Shown piece after piece: positions 34,158 through 50,723 of a DNA stretch of 60,984 bases; position 1 is the stretch's first letter, and each line of letters begins with the position of its first letter. The notes under the pieces are model-generated. The model ran no database searches and was not told where the DNA came from. It worked only from the letters and a program-made list of their open reading frames with translations. The DNA is from a virus: IMG/VR virus record IMGVR_UViG_3300009161_000006, positions 1 through 60,984 of that record. One strand, 5' to 3'. A program made the position numbers and the translations under genes.

Positions 34158-34628
34158 CTAATTGATTTTTAGATTGTTAAACTTATTTACTATATTCCCA
34201 ACTGTTCTATGGTTTGTACCATATTGTTTTGCAATTTTTCTCATTGATATTCCTTTTTTAATTAAATTATTCCACTCTTTGTAGAATTTATTATTTCCTT
34301 TATCTTTTAATCCTGTATATGGTTTATGTAAACCAATATCGTATGCGTGTTTTGTGTTTTCACTTATTGTATGCCATTCTAAATTTTCCACACGATTATC
34401 ATTTTTAATTCCGTTTATATGATTAACGGTTTCTTTACATTGTGGATTTGGTAAATATGCAATAGCTACAAGTCTATGAATAAAATAATCTTTATTACTT
34501 ATTCTAACTTTAACATACCCTTTATGTCCTGTTTTAGATTGTTTAAGTTCTGTAAGTTTATTAAACTTTCTTTTACTAAATACTTTGCCTTCTTTAGTAA
34601 TAAAATAATCTTTTTCTATTTCTACCAT
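34158..34628 (-). CDS. HNH homing endonuclease with NUMOD4 and HTH
   Basis: 156 aa from the Met at 34628 (MVEIEKDYFITKEGKVFS), placed 17 nt after its own -7 box. An N-terminal NUMOD4-like strand pattern is followed by the HNH core FIHRLVAIAYLPNP, then TVNHINGIKNDNRVENLEW (about 83-112). A C-terminal helix-turn-helix (ISMRKIAKQYGTNHRTV) should give site specificity. The free-standing gene lies between two accessory genes. A longer upstream reading frame exists but lacks motifs. Confidence 0.8.
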   Translation of the reverse strand: MVEIEKDYFITKEGKVFSKRKFNKLTELKQSKTGHKGYVKVRISNKDYFIHRLVAIAYLPNPQCKETVNHINGIKNDNRVENLEWHTISENTKHAYDIGLHKPYTGLKDKGNNKFYKEWNNLIKKGISMRKIAKQYGTNHRTVGNIVNKFNNLKIN

Positions 34629-34644
34629 AACATTTGTTTGTTTG

Positions 34645-34652
34645 CAAAGATA
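34645..34652 (-). promoter_or_regulatory. Leftward Bacteroidetes -7 box for HNH gene
   Basis: TATCTTTG on the minus strand, about 16 nt before the HNH start, giving an almost leaderless transcript. It suggests the endonuclease gene moves with its own promoter. Confidence 0.65.
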
Positions 34653-34762
34653 CAAAACAATATGGTAATTACTAATACCTTCCCATAACTTATAATTTAT
34701 TAAATTTTGCTTACTCTGTAAGGTTTTCAGCATCCCCTTTGCACTCGTGATAGAGATACTCA

Positions 34763-35674
34763 TCAAACGCCATACATAGCTATCTCCTTAGATACTTTGC
34801 CGGTGTCTATGAACATCTGAAACTTTCTGCCAAGTTTTATTATACTCTTAACCTTATCTAAGTTTCCATTATACATTATAATTAATAGTGGTGTTACTTT
34901 TTTCATAAACGCATTATGATTTCCATTTGGATTGTTCACACTATAATCTACCAACATATAAAATAACTCATACCTCCTAATCATTTGTTTAACATTCTCA
35001 AACTTAGATGGCAGTCTAAACTCAAGCACCCCCTCATTCACATCAAACTCTTTTACAAGAGCGACCTGATACTTATCATGACACCCATGCCAATCCCAAT
35101 ACTTCTCAGTAGACTCCATTCGTCTATTGTTACAGCAATATTTTGTCCGCAACCTATGTCTATATAAAGCATATATGAGCCCACTATTTTTTCTTACGGA
35201 CTCCCTCAGTTTGTCACCACTCCACCCATTGACACCTATTGTTATGTGACCACCACATGAGTCATCACTCGGACTGAAATTATCATCTATAATTTTCTCT
35301 GCCTTGTAAAACATATCGAACACTTTGTTCCTCCACATACCTCTCGGCAATAGTGGTAGTATATGCGTTACAGCCTCATATCCACATGAACTATCGTACT
35401 CAAATCCACAGAACATTTCATGCTCATGTAGCGCCTCTTCGTCTAACTCATTTTTCTCCACCTCAAATCCTATTGTAAACCTTGACTGATACCCTGCTAA
35501 TTCATCGAACTCAATGTTCTTTCTCTTTGATATCGGTAGCCCATTTATATCTGTCTGCCACTTAGTCTTGTTCAACTTTAATGGATAAGCTTTATTATGG
35601 TATCTCACAACCTCACCTCTAATACTCTGATTTGTCTTGGTGTAAATAACACCTGACTTTTCACATTCTGTCAT
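34763..35674 (-). CDS. Amidoligase-like enzyme (glutamine-synthetase fold)
   Basis: 303 aa. Motifs of the Amidoligase_2 (COOH-NH2 ligase) family in order: first-strand FTIGFEVEK (66-74), DSSCGYEAVT (94-103), CGGHITIGVNG (140-150), Tyr/Arg helix YALYRHRLRTKYC (168-180), and VLEFRLPS (216-223). The paired acidic residues and His would bind ATP-Mg, and the Arg the substrate. It shares this motif order with the protein at 37436-38644, and GAT-II and JAB genes lie between. It is predicted to form amide bonds; the substrate is unknown. Confidence 0.7.
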   Translation of the reverse strand: MTECEKSGVIYTKTNQSIRGEVVRYHNKAYPLKLNKTKWQTDINGLPISKRKNIEFDELAGYQSRFTIGFEVEKNELDEEALHEHEMFCGFEYDSSCGYEAVTHILPLLPRGMWRNKVFDMFYKAEKIIDDNFSPSDDSCGGHITIGVNGWSGDKLRESVRKNSGLIYALYRHRLRTKYCCNNRRMESTEKYWDWHGCHDKYQVALVKEFDVNEGVLEFRLPSKFENVKQMIRRYELFYMLVDYSVNNPNGNHNAFMKKVTPLLIIMYNGNLDKVKSIIKLGRKFQMFIDTGKVSKEIAMYGV

Positions 35675-35694
35675 ACATTTAGATTTAATTTGAT

Positions 35695-36144
35695 TTATAA
35701 TTTACCTTCGTCTACATAAGAGTAATATCCTTTTGACGTAACGATTACATGGTCTAATAGCCTTAAGTCCATTATCTTACACGCTTCATTTAATTTTTTA
35801 GTTAAGGCATCATCTTGCTCACTTGTTTTCAAAGCACCACTTGGATGATTATGACTCAGTATTATTCCTGTTGCTCCACAATTTAATGCCGTCACTAAAA
35901 TCATTCGTACATCTATTACAGTTGAGGTTATCCCACCTTGACTAAGTTTCTGCCAACCTATTGAACGATTTGCTTGATTGAAATAAATTACTATTGAACT
36001 CTCACAATAGTCTAATGTGTCCTCATCATACATCTTCTTCAATAATTTATAGCTGTCATCAGACCCCTTAATCTGAGTCGTAACAATCCCCGATGCCTTG
36101 TACTTCAGTGTAATCTCAGGCATATCACTCTTGTATTCTTTCAT
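35695..36144 (-). CDS. radC: RadC-like JAB/MPN domain protein
   Basis: 149 aa, the length of a stand-alone RadC JAB domain. An upstream Glu (CESSIVIYFN), then SHNHPSGALKTSEQD (H-x-H-x-x-S-G...D) gives the JAMM metal site, and LLDHVIVTSKGYYSY ends it, all typical of RadC. Eukaryotic JAMM proteins cut isopeptide bonds; RadC-type function is unsettled. Its place between two amidoligase-like genes allows a role in reversing amide conjugation, or it may be the common phage RadC gene unrelated to the neighbours. Confidence 0.75.
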   Translation of the reverse strand: MKEYKSDMPEITLKYKASGIVTTQIKGSDDSYKLLKKMYDEDTLDYCESSIVIYFNQANRSIGWQKLSQGGITSTVIDVRMILVTALNCGATGIILSHNHPSGALKTSEQDDALTKKLNEACKIMDLRLLDHVIVTSKGYYSYVDEGKL

Positions 36145-36156
36145 AAGTCTATTGGT

Positions 36157-36414
36157 TTAAGATTTAAAATAAAGCTCACCTACACTAAAGTATCTATCTA
36201 CGCTTTGATTCTCCACTATTGTTACCATAGAGCCATTGTTCAATCCATCAATATAGTATTGAGCGAATTGGTCACTTGAATCCTTTAGTAAATCAATCAC
36301 GTTATCTTTTGGTACTCTTGTTACACCACTCATTGGCGTGTGAGTAAATGCAATTCTAATCATTGGAAATACATTTCCGATTATGTTTCTGTAATGTCCC
36401 GCTTGTGGTTTCAT
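36157..36414 (-). CDS. Hypothetical protein in amidoligase cassette
   Basis: 85 aa from the Met at 36414 (MKPQAGHYRNIIGNVF). I chose this start because a hairpin and an A-rich leader (AATTAAAAACTAAACTT) directly precede it. It contains MIRIAFTHTPMSGVTRVPKDNV and ends YFSVGELYFKS. No family was recognised. Its place between GAT-II and RadC makes it a candidate carrier, substrate or accessory of that cassette (speculation). Confidence 0.5.
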   Translation of the reverse strand: MKPQAGHYRNIIGNVFPMIRIAFTHTPMSGVTRVPKDNVIDLLKDSSDQFAQYYIDGLNNGSMVTIVENQSVDRYFSVGELYFKS

Positions 36415-36431
36415 AAGTTTAGTTTTTAATT

Positions 36432-36447
36432 GTGGCGTTAACGCCAC
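36432..36447 (-). promoter_or_regulatory. TYRA-loop leader hairpin (GTGGCG-TTAA-CGCCAC)
   Basis: A perfect 16-bp dyad 18 nt before the 36414 start codon. Stem arms differ from the sister hairpins at 39191 and 39471 but pair perfectly, indicating covariation. Confidence 0.65.
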
Positions 36448-36479
36448 TTTTGGTTTTCGTGCGTTATGGATGCGACACC

Positions 36480-36496
36480 CCCCTCGTGATAGCGAG
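36480..36496 (-). other. Stem-loop after GAT-II stop codon
   Basis: CCTCG-(6 nt)-CGAGG immediately follows the GAT-II gene on the leftward strand. There is no clear T run. It may protect or end the upstream transcript. Confidence 0.4.
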
Positions 36497-36497
36497 G

Positions 36498-37409
36498 TTA
36501 GAATGGGACAGTCTCACACGTAGCGCAAATCACAGCCTTCCAATCTTCATTGTACTTTGCACCCGTGTTTAAACAGCTCTCACATTCATCTTCTTTTTGT
36601 AACGCATTGTAGTGGTCTGCCTGACAATACTCACAAGTGCCAAACTCTATTTCATTCTCCTCACATAGCGTCATGCCACAGTCGTAGCAAATCTCATCGT
36701 ATATATGCTCGTCTCTTGGTATATCTTTTTGCTTTTTTGTAGCAGGTTGCGACCAAGCGTATGAAGAGCCATACGATTGACCATATACGTTTCCCGGAGT
36801 ATATCCAACGCTACTACCAAGCGACCCTCTGTAGACTTTTGTTCCACCATAGTCAACATAGTTACTGACATACTTATATGAACCATTGGAGAACCAACAG
36901 CCATTAGCCCAATGCCCTGCTTTCTCATTGACAATAGCATATTCATTATTGGTATTCAAGAATACTAATTTGCTACCACCTATGAAGCCCTCAAGCATAT
37001 CAAGTATTATCTCATTGTACTCAAATCCCTCCGTGAAATTCTTGAGCACTACCTCGTTGAACATATAGGTATCCGAATAGTCCTTACTCGTAGGGACATC
37101 GTATATCATTCCGTTATGCACAAATCCTAAGTTATCATTGACCAAGAACGGATGACAATTTGTTTCATCAATCTTTCCGTGAGTACTGATTCGAAAATGT
37201 ATTACTATGTTTCGCTTACCATAACTCTTTTTTACCCTACTATATTCCTGATAGAACACCTCAAAGCTCTTCAACTCCTTGAATGTTTTCATTTGTTTTT
37301 TGTTGTCGATATATAACAAACCGGCACCATCGCCATTGTTATCCCAACAGTTTTTTAGTAGCTCTCTCTTAAGAGTAGCTTCTTTCTTATTCAAAATTGC
37401 TATACACAT
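36498..37409 (-). CDS. Class II glutamine amidotransferase with zinc-ribbon tail
   Basis: 303 aa. MCIAILN gives the N-terminal nucleophile Cys2. Further GAT-II marks are NNGDGAGLLY (24-33), VIHFRISTHGKIDETNCHPF (69-88, Arg73 and the THG loop), and GFVHNGMIYD (95-104, Asn-Gly of the oxyanion hole). A Tyr/Gly/Ser-rich linker leads to four CxxC-type pairs in the last 65 residues, probably zinc ribbons. It would release ammonia from glutamine. Flanked by amidoligase-like genes, it is a likely nitrogen donor for them. Confidence 0.8.
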   Translation of the reverse strand: MCIAILNKKEATLKRELLKNCWDNNGDGAGLLYIDNKKQMKTFKELKSFEVFYQEYSRVKKSYGKRNIVIHFRISTHGKIDETNCHPFLVNDNLGFVHNGMIYDVPTSKDYSDTYMFNEVVLKNFTEGFEYNEIILDMLEGFIGGSKLVFLNTNNEYAIVNEKAGHWANGCWFSNGSYKYVSNYVDYGGTKVYRGSLGSSVGYTPGNVYGQSYGSSYAWSQPATKKQKDIPRDEHIYDEICYDCGMTLCEENEIEFGTCEYCQADHYNALQKEDECESCLNTGAKYNEDWKAVICATCETVPF

Positions 37410-37435
37410 ATTTATTAGATTAAATTATTAATTAA

Positions 37436-38644
37436 TTACGCTCCTACTTCATCATTATTTATTGAGTTACTCAACCCATCACTTTTAATTTTGCTTACAT
37501 CAATATTGTCAAGCACCTTGTTATTATACATCTTAGAGTATTGTATGAATTTATTAACCTTAGTTAGCAACTGCGATTGAGTATAAATTAACCTCAAGTG
37601 CTTGTATAACTTAGACCTCTGATTGACAATCATCTTGAGTACATCAACCTCCGAAGCATTGATATTGGTCATTATTATCCTCATTAAGTCACGTCTCCAA
37701 AGTAAATTTTTGATAGATTTTACAGAGGAAGGTAGCCTTATCTCCACCCTATTATTCTTGATATAAAAAGATGAGTATTTATCTCTCGTATAGAAGTACT
37801 CTTGCTTCTTCTTAGCTTTAGAGTATGTCTTATCGAGCCTATTCTCATACATTGAATAGAGCAGTGGTATAAACCCACTCATGCCCTCAAATAATTCATC
37901 AGGTGAATACTTAGTTGATGACACATTTATATGACCCCCACAATTTTCAGATGACTTGGCATTAATTAAGGTCATTAAGTCGGGGTCTTTTATATCATTG
38001 TCCATATCATTAGTGAACAAGTCAAAGGTCGGACTGACCAACTCATAGCCAATACAGCTATCTAATGACCCGTCATTCTCCTTGCCCCAACCTGTTCTAT
38101 CGTACACATCTCTATAGTATATTCCACAGGCATCGCCATCTTCCTTCTCCACCTCGAAGCCAACCCTCCAAACTGTTTTCTCAGTGGACTTGTCCCTTCG
38201 TGATAGCGATTGATAACTTGCATTATTTTCCGATTGGTCATCATCATCATCCGACTCATAATTTGAATCATAGTACTCATCTCGTCTGTCTGACCAATAG
38301 ATGCCATGGTCATTTGCTACGTCGCTGTCGGCATAAACTTCACCCCTACATTCTATTGATTCATCTCTGCAGAAGTATCCCTGAGCTCTTCTTGATACGT
38401 ATCCATATTGGCATCTATGGTTCTCTGTATCTATCCACTCATCATGATACTCTGAGTATGCTATGCTCTCATTACCTTCAATAAATGTACTGCCAAAATA
38501 TTCAGTATGCACATCATCATTTAGACACCATTCGTTCTCCATATCGGTCAAGGTACAGTCTGATTTCAACTCCCAAGTCCCATCGTGTAGTTCTACACAT
38601 AATTCTGCGGGGTGTACGTCCCCATTGCTTACCATTATATTCAT
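37436..38644 (-). CDS. Amidoligase-like enzyme with Cys/Tyr-rich N-terminal region
   Basis: 402 aa. Residues 1-150 hold repeated Cys/Trp/Tyr/Asp modules and an acidic run SDDDDDQ. The catalytic part follows: WRVGFEVEKEDG (159-170), NDGSLDSCIGYELVSP (190-205), ENCGGHINVSS (233-243), YENRL...YFYTRDKY, and NRVEIRLPSS (298-307). This is the Amidoligase_2 order and the same as in 34763-35674, so the two are paralogs. The N-terminal region may recognise the conjugation target (inference). Confidence 0.7.
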   Translation of the reverse strand: MNIMVSNGDVHPAELCVELHDGTWELKSDCTLTDMENEWCLNDDVHTEYFGSTFIEGNESIAYSEYHDEWIDTENHRCQYGYVSRRAQGYFCRDESIECRGEVYADSDVANDHGIYWSDRRDEYYDSNYESDDDDDQSENNASYQSLSRRDKSTEKTVWRVGFEVEKEDGDACGIYYRDVYDRTGWGKENDGSLDSCIGYELVSPTFDLFTNDMDNDIKDPDLMTLINAKSSENCGGHINVSSTKYSPDELFEGMSGFIPLLYSMYENRLDKTYSKAKKKQEYFYTRDKYSSFYIKNNRVEIRLPSSVKSIKNLLWRRDLMRIIMTNINASEVDVLKMIVNQRSKLYKHLRLIYTQSQLLTKVNKFIQYSKMYNNKVLDNIDVSKIKSDGLSNSINNDEVGA

Positions 38645-39165: not shown

Positions 39166-39190
39166 ACGTTCTAATTTTTAATTATTAATA

Positions 39191-39206
39191 GTAACCTCGA
39201 GGTTAC
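39191..39206 (-). promoter_or_regulatory. TYRA-loop leader hairpin (GTAACC-TCGA-GGTTAC)
   Basis: A perfect dyad 26 nt before the 39165 start. The flanks (AAATCAAA on one side, TATTAATAATTAAAAATTAG on the other) are identical to those of the hairpin at 39471, while both stem arms have changed together. Confidence 0.75.
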
Positions 39207-39223
39207 TTTTGATTTATACTATT

Positions 39224-39457: not shown

Positions 39458-39739
39458 TTAATTATTAATAGTGGTTTCAAAACCACATTTGATTTCAATT
39501 GTTACTTCATCCATTGCGCCCTCGAGTGACAGTGAGTCCAAATCAGCGAACCGACTCGCACAATAGCCCTGCCATCGAAGACCGTTCTTTGTAGTCCCCT
39601 TGTTATTCACACCGGAGATGATGAACGTCCTCTGCTCGAATCCATTGATGAACTCATCAAGGACATAATACTCTCTACCATTCACGACCTTTGCCCCTTC
39701 AGGTAACTTCTTATCATTGATACACGTTACCTTTCTCAT
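39458..39739 (-). CDS. Hypothetical protein with CGFETT tail
   Basis: 93 aa. The opening MRKVTCINDKKLPEG and a later RWQGYCASRF resemble a small-protein family common in Bacteroidetes phages. The last residues EIKCGFETTINN are encoded by a palindrome (39471-39486) that is also the leader hairpin of the next gene. A truncated relative lies at 41162-41256. The start overlaps the 69-aa gene by 4 nt. Unknown function. Confidence 0.65.
   Translation of the reverse strand: MRKVTCINDKKLPEGAKVVNGREYYVLDEFINGFEQRTFIISGVNNKGTTKNGLRWQGYCASRFADLDSLSLEGAMDEVTIEIKCGFETTINN
39471..39486 (-). promoter_or_regulatory. TYRA-loop leader hairpin (GTGGTT-TTGA-AACCAC)
   Basis: A perfect 6-bp stem with TTGA loop read leftward, 26 nt before the 39445 start and overlapping the last codons of the 93-aa gene. 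The same stem recurs at 41162, 41572 and 42075. Confidence 0.75.
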
Positions 39740-41115: not shown

Positions 41116-41161
41116 TTCATTTAATTATTAAATTATAAATACTATTTTTTTAAGTTGAACT

Positions 41162-41177
41162 GTGGTTTTGAAACCAC
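41162..41177 (-). promoter_or_regulatory. TYRA-loop hairpin (GTGGTT-TCAA-AACCAC)
   Basis: Perfect stem, 47 nt before the 41115 start codon. It lies at the end of a truncated copy of the 93-aa gene. Confidence 0.65.
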
Positions 41178-41256
41178 AATCGATTTCATTCTCATTGGGG
41201 CGCACGTCCCCTGTGACAGTGAGAGCATTCATCTCCACCCTCGCACCCTTAATTTG
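41162..41256 (-). pseudogene. Truncated relative of the 93-aa gene (3' end)
   Basis: A 34-codon frame starting at 41233 encodes NALTVTGDVRPNENEIDCGF-KTT. It aligns without gaps to the last 24 residues of the 93-aa product (DSLSLEGAMDEVTIEIKCGF-ETT). DNA matches include GTGACAGTGAG and the palindrome. The 5' two thirds of the gene are absent. Gap 41116-41320 holds nothing else that I can identify. Confidence 0.5.
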
Positions 41257-41548: not shown

Positions 41549-41571
41549 TTTTTTTTTATTAAAGTAAAAAT

Positions 41572-41587
41572 GTGGTTTTGAAACCAC
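41572..41587 (-). promoter_or_regulatory. TYRA-loop leader hairpin (GTGGTT-TCAA-AACCAC)
   Basis: Perfect stem 24 nt before the lipoprotein start codon; non-coding here, so conservation cannot be due to a protein. Confidence 0.75.
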
Positions 41588-41611
41588 ACTATAAAAAATA
41601 TTCGTATACGC

Positions 41612-41662: not shown

Positions 41663-42199
41663 TTACCCTTCTATCATGGTATCCATTTTGCGTTTAAGCA
41701 ATACAATAACTGCTTGAATTTGCGCCTTTGTTAGTGTACTTGTCAATTCGTCCTTATCGTTAATTGATAATTTTGACTCACCGAAAGTTAATTTTAGCTT
41801 AAATTCTTCCTTTTCTTTCGTTGGCGTATCGGTAGCGAATTTCAAAAAGTCCTGCACATTGTAGGAATCCCGAACTGAAGCTAAATAAGCGCCTTGCTTA
41901 TCGGCAAATTTATTTGCCTTAATTAATCGGTAACACCACGACTTTTCTTGAAATCCCAAGTATAAAAAGAAATCTTCCATTGTCCATTCAACGTCTGCGA
42001 CCTTGAAAAACTGTTTACATTCTTTAGTTTTGAAGTATTCAGCGCTTTCACTTACTAATTTCGCAAGACACATTGTGGTTTCAAAACCACACTTAAAACC
42101 TTGCGTTACGGCTGAATTAAGTTCGCTAATTTCTTGAGCGTTAATTCCTTTTCTTGCATTGTTCACTGCTTTGCTTTCATTCGTTGTTAATGTTTTCAT
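41663..42199 (-). CDS. First leftward gene; hypothetical regulatory-type protein
   Basis: 178 aa. The N-terminal half includes LNSAVTQGFKCGFETTMCLA, sharing the CGFETT peptide and its palindrome with other loci. The middle (WTMEDFFLYLGFQEKSWCYRLIKANKF, about 71-97) looks like a helix-turn-helix or recognition helix region. The C-terminus is a charged helix. As the first gene after the divergent region, and separated from the rest by a terminator, it suits an immediate-early regulator (inference). Confidence 0.55.
   Translation of the reverse strand: MKTLTTNESKAVNNARKGINAQEISELNSAVTQGFKCGFETTMCLAKLVSESAEYFKTKECKQFFKVADVEWTMEDFFLYLGFQEKSWCYRLIKANKFADKQGAYLASVRDSYNVQDFLKFATDTPTKEKEEFKLKLTFGESKLSINDKDELTSTLTKAQIQAVIVLLKRKMDTMIEG
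42075..42090 (-). repeat. TYRA-loop palindrome inside coding sequence
   Basis: GTGGTT-TTGA-AACCAC read leftward, encoding CGFETT in the 178-aa gene. It is directly followed by an in-frame ATG (MCLAKLVSE), so an internal start is possible. Confidence 0.55.
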
Positions 42200-43288: not shown

Positions 43289-44899
43289 ATGATAGATAGT
43301 GCAGGGTATTCACCCAAGAACTTACATTTCGGCGAAGAGGGCCGAAAGAAACTAATCAAAGGAGTAACAACAATGTCTAATGCTGTGAAGAGCACATTAG
43401 GACCGGGCGGTAATACTGTTTTAATAGAGTCGGTAAATCACTTACGTGGTATAACTGTAACTAAGGATGGTGTAACTGTTGCTCGTTCTATAGATTTGTT
43501 AGACCCTGTTGAGAATTTAGCGGTACGTATGATGAAGGAGGCTGCGGACCAAACTGCAACGAGTGCAGGAGACGGTACGACTACGGCTATTGTATTAACG
43601 GAGTCATTGGTATTGGGTGGATTGGAGTTAATAACTATTGACCACAACAGAACGGAGGTTTTGCGACAGCTATCGGAGATAACTAATAAGGTGGTGGAGA
43701 GATTGCGAGATAAGTCTACTGATGTAACGGATGATATGATAGTTGACGTTGCTACTATATCTGCGAACAATGACAGGAGTATAGGAACGATAATAGCTGA
43801 GGTATATGGTGACGTTGGTAAGACGGGCATGGTAACGGTTGAGCGTTCACAGACATCTGACACATATTCAGAGACGACAACGGGTATTAAGGTAGACAGG
43901 GGGTATAGTTCGCCATTATTCATTAATGACCAAAAGCGAGACGAGTGTATATTTGAGGACACCATGATATTGGTAGCTGACGTAGACATAAATAATATCT
44001 TACAGATAGAGAACATATTAAAGCCAATTATAAATGAGGGCAAGAAATTATTAATTATAGCTCCGTGTAATGCGAATGTGGTGAACACATTGGCGGCAAA
44101 TGTAATGAAGGGTAATTTGAAGGTATGTGTAGTAGCTCCTCCAAATTTTGGATATAAGCAACATGAATTAATGCAAGACATCGCCATAAGTGTTGGAGCT
44201 ACTTATTTTAGTGAGGGTACGGGTGATGATTTGAGTCATATTACTTATGATGATTTGGGTCATGCTGCCAAGGTTATAATCGGAAGGGAGAAGACTGTTA
44301 TATTAAAGTCAAGTGAAAACATAAACCAATCCGACATTGACGAGAGGGTAAAGCAATTGCGAGATGCTCATACACTTGCAAAGCGGAAAGATGACAAAGA
44401 CTTTATTATTGAGCGCATAGCGTCATTAACGGGTGGTATAGGTGTAATATTTGTTGGTGGCAATACTGACTTGGAGCAGAAGGAGTTGTATGACAGGGTT
44501 GATGATGCTGTGTGTGCTGTTCGTTCTGCATTAGAGGAGGGTATATTAGCAGGAGCAGGTAAGGCTTTGTATGAGATTAGCTTCGATGATTTTTTTGATG
44601 GCAAGTTGAGTAAGGAGCAAGAGGTAGCGTGTATTATTTTAAGGGAAGCCTTAAGGTCTCCATTGGTTCAGATATTAAATAACGCAGGGTTATTCGTTGA
44701 GAAGATTTACAGTGGTGATATTGCAGATGGCCATGGTTACAACTTAAAGACATCTGAGATGGGTGACTTGATTGAGATGGGTGTCATTGACCCACTAAAA
44801 GTTACTCGTAGTGCATTACAGAACGCAGTTAGTGTAGCTACTACAATACTAAGCACAAATGCCATTATTACAATGGCACGAACATATGAGTCACAATAA
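43289..44899 (+). CDS. groEL: Phage-encoded chaperonin GroEL
   Basis: 536 aa, near full length (E. coli 548). Conserved chaperonin landmarks: STLGPGGNTV (35-44), VTKDGVTVA (57-65), ATP-site GDGTTT (94-99), the apical segment GYSSPLFIN, LLIIAPCNANV and the PNFGYKQ region, GGIGVIFVGGNTDLEQKE, and RVDDAVCAVR with the catalytic Asp (D398 equivalent), then LEEGILAGAGKAL. The C-terminal GGM tail is missing. It should form the folding chamber, with GroES as lid, for capsid or other phage proteins. Codon use looks like its neighbours. Its stop overlaps the HNH start. Confidence 0.95.
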   Translation: MIDSAGYSPKNLHFGEEGRKKLIKGVTTMSNAVKSTLGPGGNTVLIESVNHLRGITVTKDGVTVARSIDLLDPVENLAVRMMKEAADQTATSAGDGTTTAIVLTESLVLGGLELITIDHNRTEVLRQLSEITNKVVERLRDKSTDVTDDMIVDVATISANNDRSIGTIIAEVYGDVGKTGMVTVERSQTSDTYSETTTGIKVDRGYSSPLFINDQKRDECIFEDTMILVADVDINNILQIENILKPIINEGKKLLIIAPCNANVVNTLAANVMKGNLKVCVVAPPNFGYKQHELMQDIAISVGATYFSEGTGDDLSHITYDDLGHAAKVIIGREKTVILKSSENINQSDIDERVKQLRDAHTLAKRKDDKDFIIERIASLTGGIGVIFVGGNTDLEQKELYDRVDDAVCAVRSALEEGILAGAGKALYEISFDDFFDGKLSKEQEVACIILREALRSPLVQILNNAGLFVEKIYSGDIADGHGYNLKTSEMGDLIEMGVIDPLKVTRSALQNAVSVATTILSTNAIITMARTYESQ

Positions 44900-49248: not shown

Positions 49249-49722
49249 ATGCCAAATTTAAAACTTCAAGTAAGTAGAGCTCTGTCTGTTACACCTTCAG
49301 ACGATACGAATATACCAATGCCAAGCCTTATTCTACAGGGTACTGCTAGTTCAGCTTCTCCATTTAAACTTATAGATAACACTGTAGACTTTATTGCATT
49401 GGGAGTTCAGGTCGGTGATACTGTATATGCTAATGTATTAGGTGCAATGGTTACAAATGTAGATAGCGCTAATGTTTTGACTTTAAATTTAGATATTATA
49501 TCGGGTGGCGGAGACGCTTACGAATTATATTCAGGCACAAATATGTCAGGAACAATTGAGCCATCAGTATTATATGTTGGACAAAGTGGAGACCTATCTG
49601 TTGTAACAGCAGGAGGTGACAATGTTACCTTTGTGAATATTCCATCGGGGTCTTTTCTTCCTATTCAAGTTATAAGGGTTTTAACTTCAACAACGGCATC
49701 TAAAATTATAGCTCTTTGGTAA
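49249..49722 (+). CDS. Virion-surface-type beta protein
   Basis: 157 aa, beta-rich with Thr/Val/Ser and Gly. Segment FKLIDNTVDFIALGVQVGDTVY is mirrored by one in the ring-like protein at 2654 (QLIDATVNFPALGVKVGDIV), suggesting a shared small beta fold. Directly upstream of the BspA-like gene (TAATG overlap), so probably a fibre or adhesin base (inference). Confidence 0.55.
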   Translation: MPNLKLQVSRALSVTPSDDTNIPMPSLILQGTASSASPFKLIDNTVDFIALGVQVGDTVYANVLGAMVTNVDSANVLTLNLDIISGGGDAYELYSGTNMSGTIEPSVLYVGQSGDLSVVTAGGDNVTFVNIPSGSFLPIQVIRVLTSTTASKIIALW

Positions 49723-50723
49723 TGATACAGATAGGGATAAATATAGCAGTCAATGGAGAGTCTAGTGCAGCACCTTTGCCTCCTCCTCCTCCTATATATT
49801 TCACTACTACATGGACTACTACAATTCCAAACGAAACTATCACTCTACCCTATGATGCAGCAGGTACTTATTCAGGAACTATAGATTGGGGAGATAACAA
49901 TATAGATGTAAATAGTTTTGCTAACAGTTCTCATACTTATGCCTTAGCAGGCACTTATACTGTTGAGATAATTGGTGATTGTATAGGGTGGAATTTTGGT
50001 TCCTATGGAAGTGCAACTTATATTACATCGGTAGTACATTGGGGGCAGCTTGAGTTAGGTGCTAATAATGGAGGGTATTTTAATAGTTGCACTAACTTAG
50101 ATTTATCATTAGTATCTGATATCCTTAATTTACAAAATATAACTACTCTTTATCAAATGTTTGCCAATTCAAACACAATTACAATAAATAATATTAATCT
50201 ATGGAATACAGCACAGGTCACTAGTATGAGTAGTATGTTTAATGGTGCAACTAATTTTAATCAAGCGTTAAGTTTTAATACAGACAATGTTAATGATATG
50301 AATAGTATGTTCTATAATGCATCTTCTTTCAATGGTATATTAAGTTTTAATACAGAGAATGTTAATGATATGGGTAATATGTTCTATAATGCATCTTCTT
50401 TTAATCAACCATTGGCTTTTGTTACCGGGGAAGTTGTAAATATGAACGCTATGTTTTATGGTGCAACTAATTTTAATCAAAACATAGGAGCTTGGGATGT
50501 ATCTAATGTCAATGATTTTCAAGATTTCATGGCTAGTAAAACACCTGCCACTTTCTCTACTGCTAACCTTGATGCTATCTACAATGGATGGTTTTTATAT
50601 GATGTGTTATATGGGTTGAGCCCTGTTGATTTTGGCACAGCAAAATATTCACCTGCAGGTATAGTAGGCAGGGCAATTCTTACAGGTGTCTATTTATGGA
50701 ATATTAATGATGGAGGATTGTAA
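49722..50723 (+). CDS. BspA-like repeat protein, receptor-binding candidate
   Basis: 333 aa from ATG 49722, chosen because it overlaps the upstream stop (TAATG). After an N-terminal anchor and PPPPPP linker, a PKD-like segment (GTIDWGDNN...HTYALAGTYTVEI) occurs. Then come at least five 20-25-residue DUF285/BspA-type repeats with the core MxxMFxxAxxFNQ (about 170-270). Such repeats form leucine-rich-repeat-like surfaces used in adhesion. Between two near-identical DNA repeats it may vary by recombination. Confidence 0.7.
   Translation: MIQIGINIAVNGESSAAPLPPPPPIYFTTTWTTTIPNETITLPYDAAGTYSGTIDWGDNNIDVNSFANSSHTYALAGTYTVEIIGDCIGWNFGSYGSATYITSVVHWGQLELGANNGGYFNSCTNLDLSLVSDILNLQNITTLYQMFANSNTITINNINLWNTAQVTSMSSMFNGATNFNQALSFNTDNVNDMNSMFYNASSFNGILSFNTENVNDMGNMFYNASSFNQPLAFVTGEVVNMNAMFYGATNFNQNIGAWDVSNVNDFQDFMASKTPATFSTANLDAIYNGWFLYDVLYGLSPVDFGTAKYSPAGIVGRAILTGVYLWNINDGGL
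50274..50397 (+). repeat. Near-identical DNA repeats in BspA-like gene
   Basis: Segments of about 50 bp containing AATGTTAATGATATG and ATGTTCTATAATGCATCTTC recur at about 50285-50335 and 50357-50402 with a 72-bp (24-codon) period. Confidence 0.75.

Follow-up and report, generated by a model that had tools for sequence, protein, structure and literature searches.

A candidate glutamine-fed amide-ligation cassette with two anciently diverged amidoligases in an uncultured ~60-kb phage

Background

Ligases resembling glutamine synthetase (GS), together with glutamine amidotransferases, recur in unrelated phage lineages. What would a virus make with such enzymes, and on which molecule would they act? 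We address this question at one locus of the virus record IMGVR_UViG_3300009161_000006, analysed over positions 1-60,984 as a single stretch of 60,984 bases that we refer to as the window. The locus, at 34763-38644 among small genes on the minus strand, holds five tightly spaced open reading frames (ORFs) in one direction. An original prediction, made from the letters alone, had read them as two paralogous amidoligases (here A and B), a class II glutamine amidotransferase (GAT-II), a RadC-type JAMM protein and an 85-aa protein, together forming a pathway that modifies peptide, wall or virion components. All five ORFs were confirmed in place on the minus strand (Table 1).

Here we present the case for a glutamine-fed cassette that forms amide bonds on a carboxylate of host material, a reading to which we assign a probability of about 60%. 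It is argued from folds, conserved catalytic residues, linkage and distribution. The cassette itself is real and its proposed function plausible, and the kind is already known: phages of the phiEco32, LUZ24 and PSA-HP1 type carry ligases, GAT-II, an ATP-grasp protein and GGACT (gamma-glutamyl amine cyclotransferase family). What is new is that related uncultured phages hold two cassette types and that the window alone joins A to B and GAT-II without GGACT.

The published version has been described as a 'peptidoglycan modification cassette' composed of a gamma-glutamyl amidoligase, a second amidoligase, an ATP-grasp protein, GGCT and a GAT, and carried by PSA-HP1, RIO-1, phiEco32, 7-11, PA11, tf, LUZ24, PaP3 and CW02 (PMC5498523, after Hardies 2013 and Iyer et al.). 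In UFV-P2 the ligase and GAT of the same gene set are separated by an HNH gene (PMC3890496). OM43 phages carry PF12224 with a GATase, and Iyer 2009 is cited there for cell-wall modification and superinfection exclusion (PMC10580990).

Results

Two ligases with a predicted GS fold

BLASTP shows A and B to be homologous (E = 1.9e-10), and a profile of the B family recovers the A gene in 41/41 A-type phages with E values from 1e-18 to 1e-37. Both proteins contain GFEVEK; the remaining motifs are EYDSSCGYE, CGGHITIG and LEFRLPS in A and ENDGSLDSCIGYE, CGGHINVS and VEIRLPS in B. The Amidoligase_2 motif order reported by the original prediction is thus present, including every motif it quoted, and this motif-based reading outdid the single-sequence hidden Markov model scan: scanned as single proteins against Pfam and PHROG, A and B gave nothing or a weak match at most.

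To place the pair, we used relatives from IMG/VR viral contigs, comprising 50 B loci and 219 A relatives of which 80 were retained; these records were selected by homology and hence are not independent samples. Neither A nor B alone reaches the gathering score of PF12224 (Amidoligase_2). Among B relatives, 10 of 28 alignment members match this family at E <= 0.1 (best 2.2e-5), L036 reaching 19.7 bits where the cut-off is 22, and some match PHROGs named 'amidoligase enzyme' (2.3e-10). By sequence, A and B appear as a distant outgroup of PF12224 that is reachable only via relatives. A scan of a genome collection gave one partial match, on an Erythrobacter-labelled contig of a metagenome-assembled genome.

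An alignment of 68 members of both types shows no variation at G69, E71, E73, K74, D94, S96, G98, E100, C140-G-G-H143, R174, E218, R220 and R234 (numbered as in A). The metal/nucleotide motifs ExE, D.S..GxE, GGH and E.R are therefore invariant in 68/68 members, and the invariant residues of B include E164, E166, D191, E201, H238, E301 and R303 (numbering +1 for the initial Met). AlphaFold2 models A with a mean pLDDT of 94.8 and a pTM of 0.93, and B with pLDDT >90 over a core of ~138-376, its N-terminal ~135 residues having no confident model. When these models were compared with the PDB by Foldseek, the top 50 matches of each were all glutamine synthetases, gamma-glutamylmethylamide synthetase (GmaS), GS-like enzymes or YbdK (best E 1.9e-5 for B and 1.5e-4 for A); searching PDB chains with the ligase sequence profile gave chance matches only. 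Both features that the original prediction had singled out for checking, a GS fold and the acidic residues expected to bind ATP and Mg, were accordingly found, the former in the predicted models and the latter as invariant positions.

The two ligases form separate clades with 100/100 support. A recent duplication is ruled out by this tree, and the term paralogous that had been applied to the pair holds in a deep sense only. In B and its relatives the N-terminal ~130 residues (38240-38644 in the window) carry repeated acidic, W/Y-rich units such as YHDEWIDTENHRCQYGYVSRR and are very variable in length.

A complete glutaminase paired with B

The amidotransferase matches PF13230 at 5.4e-5 and begins MCIAIL, which makes Cys2 the N-terminal nucleophile. 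By profile it can be aligned with the GlmS glutaminase 1xff (HFRIATHG...HPF...HNGII versus HTRWATHG...HPH...HNGII). In 24 relatives, C1, R72, N98-G99 and D112 (Met-removed numbering) are invariant and the motifs C, HFRxxTHG, HP, HNG and D are conserved. The window protein retains all catalytic residues of the class, namely the N-terminal Cys, the glutamine-binding Arg and Asp and the oxyanion Asn-Gly, and its tail contains CxxC pairs resembling a zinc ribbon. The assignment as GAT-II with Cys2 and a zinc-ribbon tail was therefore correct.

Intergenic gaps from B through GAT-II, the 85-aa gene and RadC to A measure 26, 83, 12 and 20 bp, which fits a single operon. The link between ligase and glutaminase extends well beyond the window: GAT-II accompanies B at 44/50 loci, usually within 50 bp, and A at 67/83 loci, typically 0.4-5 kb downstream, the remainder being mostly contig-end losses in both cases. 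Judged by this linkage, B and GAT-II constitute a conserved functional pair. For one P. aeruginosa phage, two lineages obtained by evolution have missense mutations in both the amidoligase gene and the GAT gene, suggesting that the two products work together (PMC11450229).

Two cassette types in one phage lineage

Related uncultured ~60-kb phages carry the ligases in two arrangements. Type 1 consists of A and a fusion of GAT-II to GGACT, the cyclotransferase domain being found on 8/8 A-type GAT-IIs scanned and, within an ORF of 337-411 aa, in 36/36 A-type records tested as well as in MW202828. Type 2 consists of B next to a plain GAT-II and is sometimes extended to B-GAT-B', a layout seen at eight B-type loci whose two Bs fall in different subclades of the tree; GGACT occurs as a stand-alone gene in 5/11 type-2 records. 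No second ligase family was seen in 41 A-type records and no A in 17 B-type records; A and B were found together in the window alone. Two ligases around one GAT-II is a recurring layout, shared by B-GAT-B', LUZ24 gp16/gp18/gp19 and the window.

Two variants of these loci are recorded as separate observations. In 24 type-1 loci a ~190-aa protein lies between A and GAT-II (L060:2386-2961 and relatives), its N-terminal part matching PF23790 Kyano_Gp96 (5.5e-10); the conserved ORFs of that interval include no shared extra enzyme. A B-GAT-B-GAT locus (L029:2948-8031) encodes a second GAT-II of 360 aa whose longer C-terminal part resembles a diverged cyclotransferase domain, and its record gave no GGACT match.

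Dozens of ~60-kb environmental contigs encode terminases that share 73-82% identity with the window terminase, and the one of MW202828 shares 76%. Its other kin among 50,697 public phages are exclusively phages of Bacteroidota (Flavobacterium 'elemo', Cellulophaga, Tenacibaculum, Maribacter and Azobacteroides; best identity 44%), and on this sequence kinship the uncultured phage probably infects a Bacteroidota host. Within this terminase lineage most members have type 1, L005 and L221 have type 2 and some have no ligase; the cassette types have apparently been exchanged within one ~60-kb phage lineage.

How did the window come to hold both ligases? Its closest colinear relative, L222, contains GAT-II (67% identity), the 85-aa gene (87%), RadC (74%), two small ORFs and the 119-aa gene, in that order, with a 93-aa gene also matched. 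This 39.5-kb contig has no ligase, its B presumably lying beyond the contig end, and neither A nor the HNH gene is there; in the window these two (34158-35674) fill the corresponding place. Most simply, A would have been gained next to an existing B-GAT-II cassette, perhaps with the HNH gene, which may have travelled together with it. The alternative is that L222 lost both.

Table 1. Genes of the cassette and the adjoining HNH gene in the window
Feature	Position	Strand	Basis
B, predicted GS-fold amidoligase, type-2 family, 402 aa	37436..38644	-	fold model, invariant residues, kin matching PF12224
GAT-II, class II glutamine amidotransferase, 303 aa, nucleophile Cys2, CxxC tail resembling a zinc ribbon	36498..37409	-	PF13230, GlmS alignment
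85-aa orphan, probable passenger	36157..36414	-	16 IMG/VR relatives
RadC-like JAB-domain protein, 149 aa, probable passenger	35695..36144	-	PF04002, E 4.5e-36
A, predicted GS-fold amidoligase, type-1 family, 303 aa	34763..35674	-	fold model, invariant residues
HNH endonuclease, immediately downstream of A	34158..34766	-	phrog_59, 2.4e-40

RadC and the 85-aa protein are probable passengers

The RadC-like protein is a confident member of PF04002, with HNHPSGALKTSEQD of the JAMM pattern E...HxHx7SxxD present and HxH and D kept. Aligned to 2qlc, the Glu of HETI apparently corresponds to Gln in the window protein, and this position is Gln in L222 and Tyr in L069. If that Glu is the JAMM general base, protease activity of the JAMM kind is improbable for this protein. 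The RadC-type assignment is upheld, while the suggested isopeptide cleavage finds no support. RadC is present in just 2/49 related records. Three A-type loci, all belonging to one sub-group, have it between A and GAT-II, and its relatives are common on plasmids, the best from Bacteroides. The 85-aa protein starts at an ATG (an alternative GTG start would give a 96-aa form running into an upstream palindrome), and most of its 16 relatives in IMG/VR have no ligase in the fetched stretch. Because one is rare and the other is found without ligases, we treat both as probable passengers and reject them as pathway components, to which the original prediction had assigned them.

Comparison with known cassettes

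Like the window, the podovirus cassette combines two different GS-like ligases with one GAT-II: in LUZ24, gp16 is PF14395, gp18 scores above the PF12224 cut-off and gp19 is GAT-II. A profile of the A and B families aligned to LUZ24 gp18 by hhalign (E 2.4e-5) shows GFEVE, DGSL, a CGGH-like His motif and EFR in order. The PF12224 proteins LUZ24 gp18 and UFV-P2 ORF23 are among the nearest known proteins, yet identity to the window ligases, themselves of predicted GS fold, is about 15%. The second ligases differ, as the window has an A-family protein where LUZ24 has gp16, and the A5-gp16 hhalign comparison shares only the GGH motif. The phage lineages differ too, the window being kin to Flavobacterium and Cellulophaga phages.

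In the OM43 phages MEP401 and MEP402 (PMC10580990), ligase and GAT-II adjoin as in type 2; their GAT-II is 40-42% identical to that of the window and their ligase matches the profile at E 7e-7, but they have a single ligase, belong to a different family of phages and infect a different host. A further known relative is MW202828 (Podoviridae sp. ctfjg026, Manatee Spring), with TerL 76%, GroEL 61% and A-type ligase 47.5% identical to the window. It carries a type-1 cassette in which A is directly followed by the GAT-II-GGACT fusion, and neither B nor RadC was found in it.

Discussion

The steps we propose are drawn from the established chemistry of the GAT-II and GS-like ligase families, and on that basis A and B with GAT-II are likely to form amides. 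GAT-II, an N-terminal nucleophile (Ntn) hydrolase acting through Cys2, would convert glutamine to glutamate and ammonia; the GS-fold ligases would phosphorylate a carboxylate with Mg-ATP, giving an activated acyl phosphate; and attack by ammonia, or by an amine for one of the two ligases, would yield the amide. B and GAT-II alone would make up a glutamine-dependent carboxylate-amidating enzyme, to which the window adds A, a second, anciently diverged ligase that may draw ammonia from the single GAT-II. With its usual GAT-II-GGACT partner, A may form a gamma-glutamyl linkage that GGACT undoes; the A of the window is without such a partner. The host would thereby be altered to the benefit of the phage, for example against superinfection. 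This chemistry is the natural reading of ligases and glutaminase, and the modification pathway of the original prediction survives to that extent, the literature proposing the same for related cassettes. As to its target, nothing singles out a peptide, wall or virion component: peptidoglycan stem peptides are the leading candidate, tentatively, and the early-type location of the cassette counts mildly against a virion target.

Several observations weigh against the proposed function. The literature consulted gave no experimental substrate, and no demonstrated action on peptidoglycan, for any cassette member. As single sequences A and B match no Pfam family at E < 1, and their Foldseek TM-scores are low (about 0.25-0.36), so that the relation to GS-fold enzymes is distant; for the modelled structures the fold assignment leans on E-values, on GS-family entries filling the top ranks and on the motifs. 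The podovirus cassette has RimK/ATP-grasp and GGCT/GGACT and the window has neither: PF06094 (GGACT), present in published cassettes, has no match in the window, and PF08443 (RimK-like ATP-grasp) has none in the window and 24 relatives, with positive controls. Even LUZ24 gp21 gives no good match to an ATP-grasp model, and a divergent ATP-grasp protein could therefore escape this search. Elemo and Cellulophaga phages, the nearest kin in culture, are not among the matches listed for A or B. Selection by terminase gave seven records of 54 kb or more, six with ligase and GAT-II and one with neither, and two further records of near-complete size, selected by their 85-aa gene, have no ligase. These near-complete relatives make the cassette accessory, common as it is in this ~60-kb lineage.

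The most serious rival holds that the ligases make a small gamma-glutamyl metabolite (amine or amide), broken down by GAT-II and, in type 1, also by GGACT, and that this serves nitrogen scavenging, a signal or an anti-defence molecule and not the wall. The fusion of GGACT to every type-1 GAT-II scanned and the presence of GmaS and YbdK among the structural matches of A and B speak for it. We consider it unlikely, since the window and several type-2 phages are without GGACT, the podovirus version of the gene set has been interpreted as wall modification (PMC5498523), and none of the window proteins scanned was recognised as a transporter, a regulator or an amine-metabolism protein. Doubtful, too, is a hybrid amidation in which two deeply diverged ligases share one glutaminase and the recycling cyclotransferase has been dropped, leaving on a Bacteroidota-specific target an amide that is doubly modified or cannot be removed, which would be a modification undescribed so far.

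There is a small chance that the region is a decaying accessory one and A a non-functional stray beside a homing endonuclease, as the missing GAT-II-GGACT partner and the absence of A and HNH from L222 could suggest; A is, however, full length with all invariant residues kept and a confident model, and lies only 20 bp behind the preceding gene as in a working operon. Conjugation or amidation of host or phage proteins, a ubiquitin/Pup-like tagging with RadC as de-conjugating JAMM peptidase, would account for a JAB-domain gene within the cluster and for one separating A from GAT-II in three related phages; we regard it as very improbable given the rarity of RadC, the apparent replacement of its JAMM Glu and the lack of any small tag-like protein conserved with the ligases, the 85-aa protein occurring without them. 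Amide chemistry occurs in some known phage base modifications and the cassette is close to replication genes in LUZ24 and MEP402, but DNA-base hypermodification, in which a ligase amidates a modified base or attaches an amino acid, is equally remote, as neither the window nor 24 relatives have PF00303 (thymidylate-synthase/hydroxymethylase-type) and no base kinase or other base-modification gene was recognised among the window proteins scanned.

For the preferred reading of amide ligation on host material, the two cassette types, their apparent exchange and the recurring layout of two ligases with one glutaminase define minimal sets that can be assayed, B with GAT-II or A with GAT-II-GGACT, and the link to a Bacteroidota host indicates where wall chemistry can be checked.

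Other features of the window

No defence match was returned by PADLOC. A GroEL chaperonin gene lies at 43289-44899 (phrog_5725, 1.4e-131), its product being 61% identical to the GroEL of MW202828, where a small gene annotated chaperonin 10 kd adjoins it. A DUF285-repeat protein is encoded at 49716-50723 (1.5e-38).

Four near-identical palindromes, TGTGGTTT(YR)AAACCACA, occur at 39470-39487, 41161-41178, 41571-41588 and 42074-42091, where shuffling expects 0.01; none is found in any of 240 fetched loci. Several lie directly upstream of minus-strand starts and one lies within the ORF 41663-42199. Two further palindromes, GTGGCGTTAACGCCAC and AGTAACCTCGAGGTTACT (36432-36447 and 39190-39207), are unlike in sequence and both stand 20-30 bases upstream of minus-strand ATGs, the placement and symmetry being retained while the sequence has changed.

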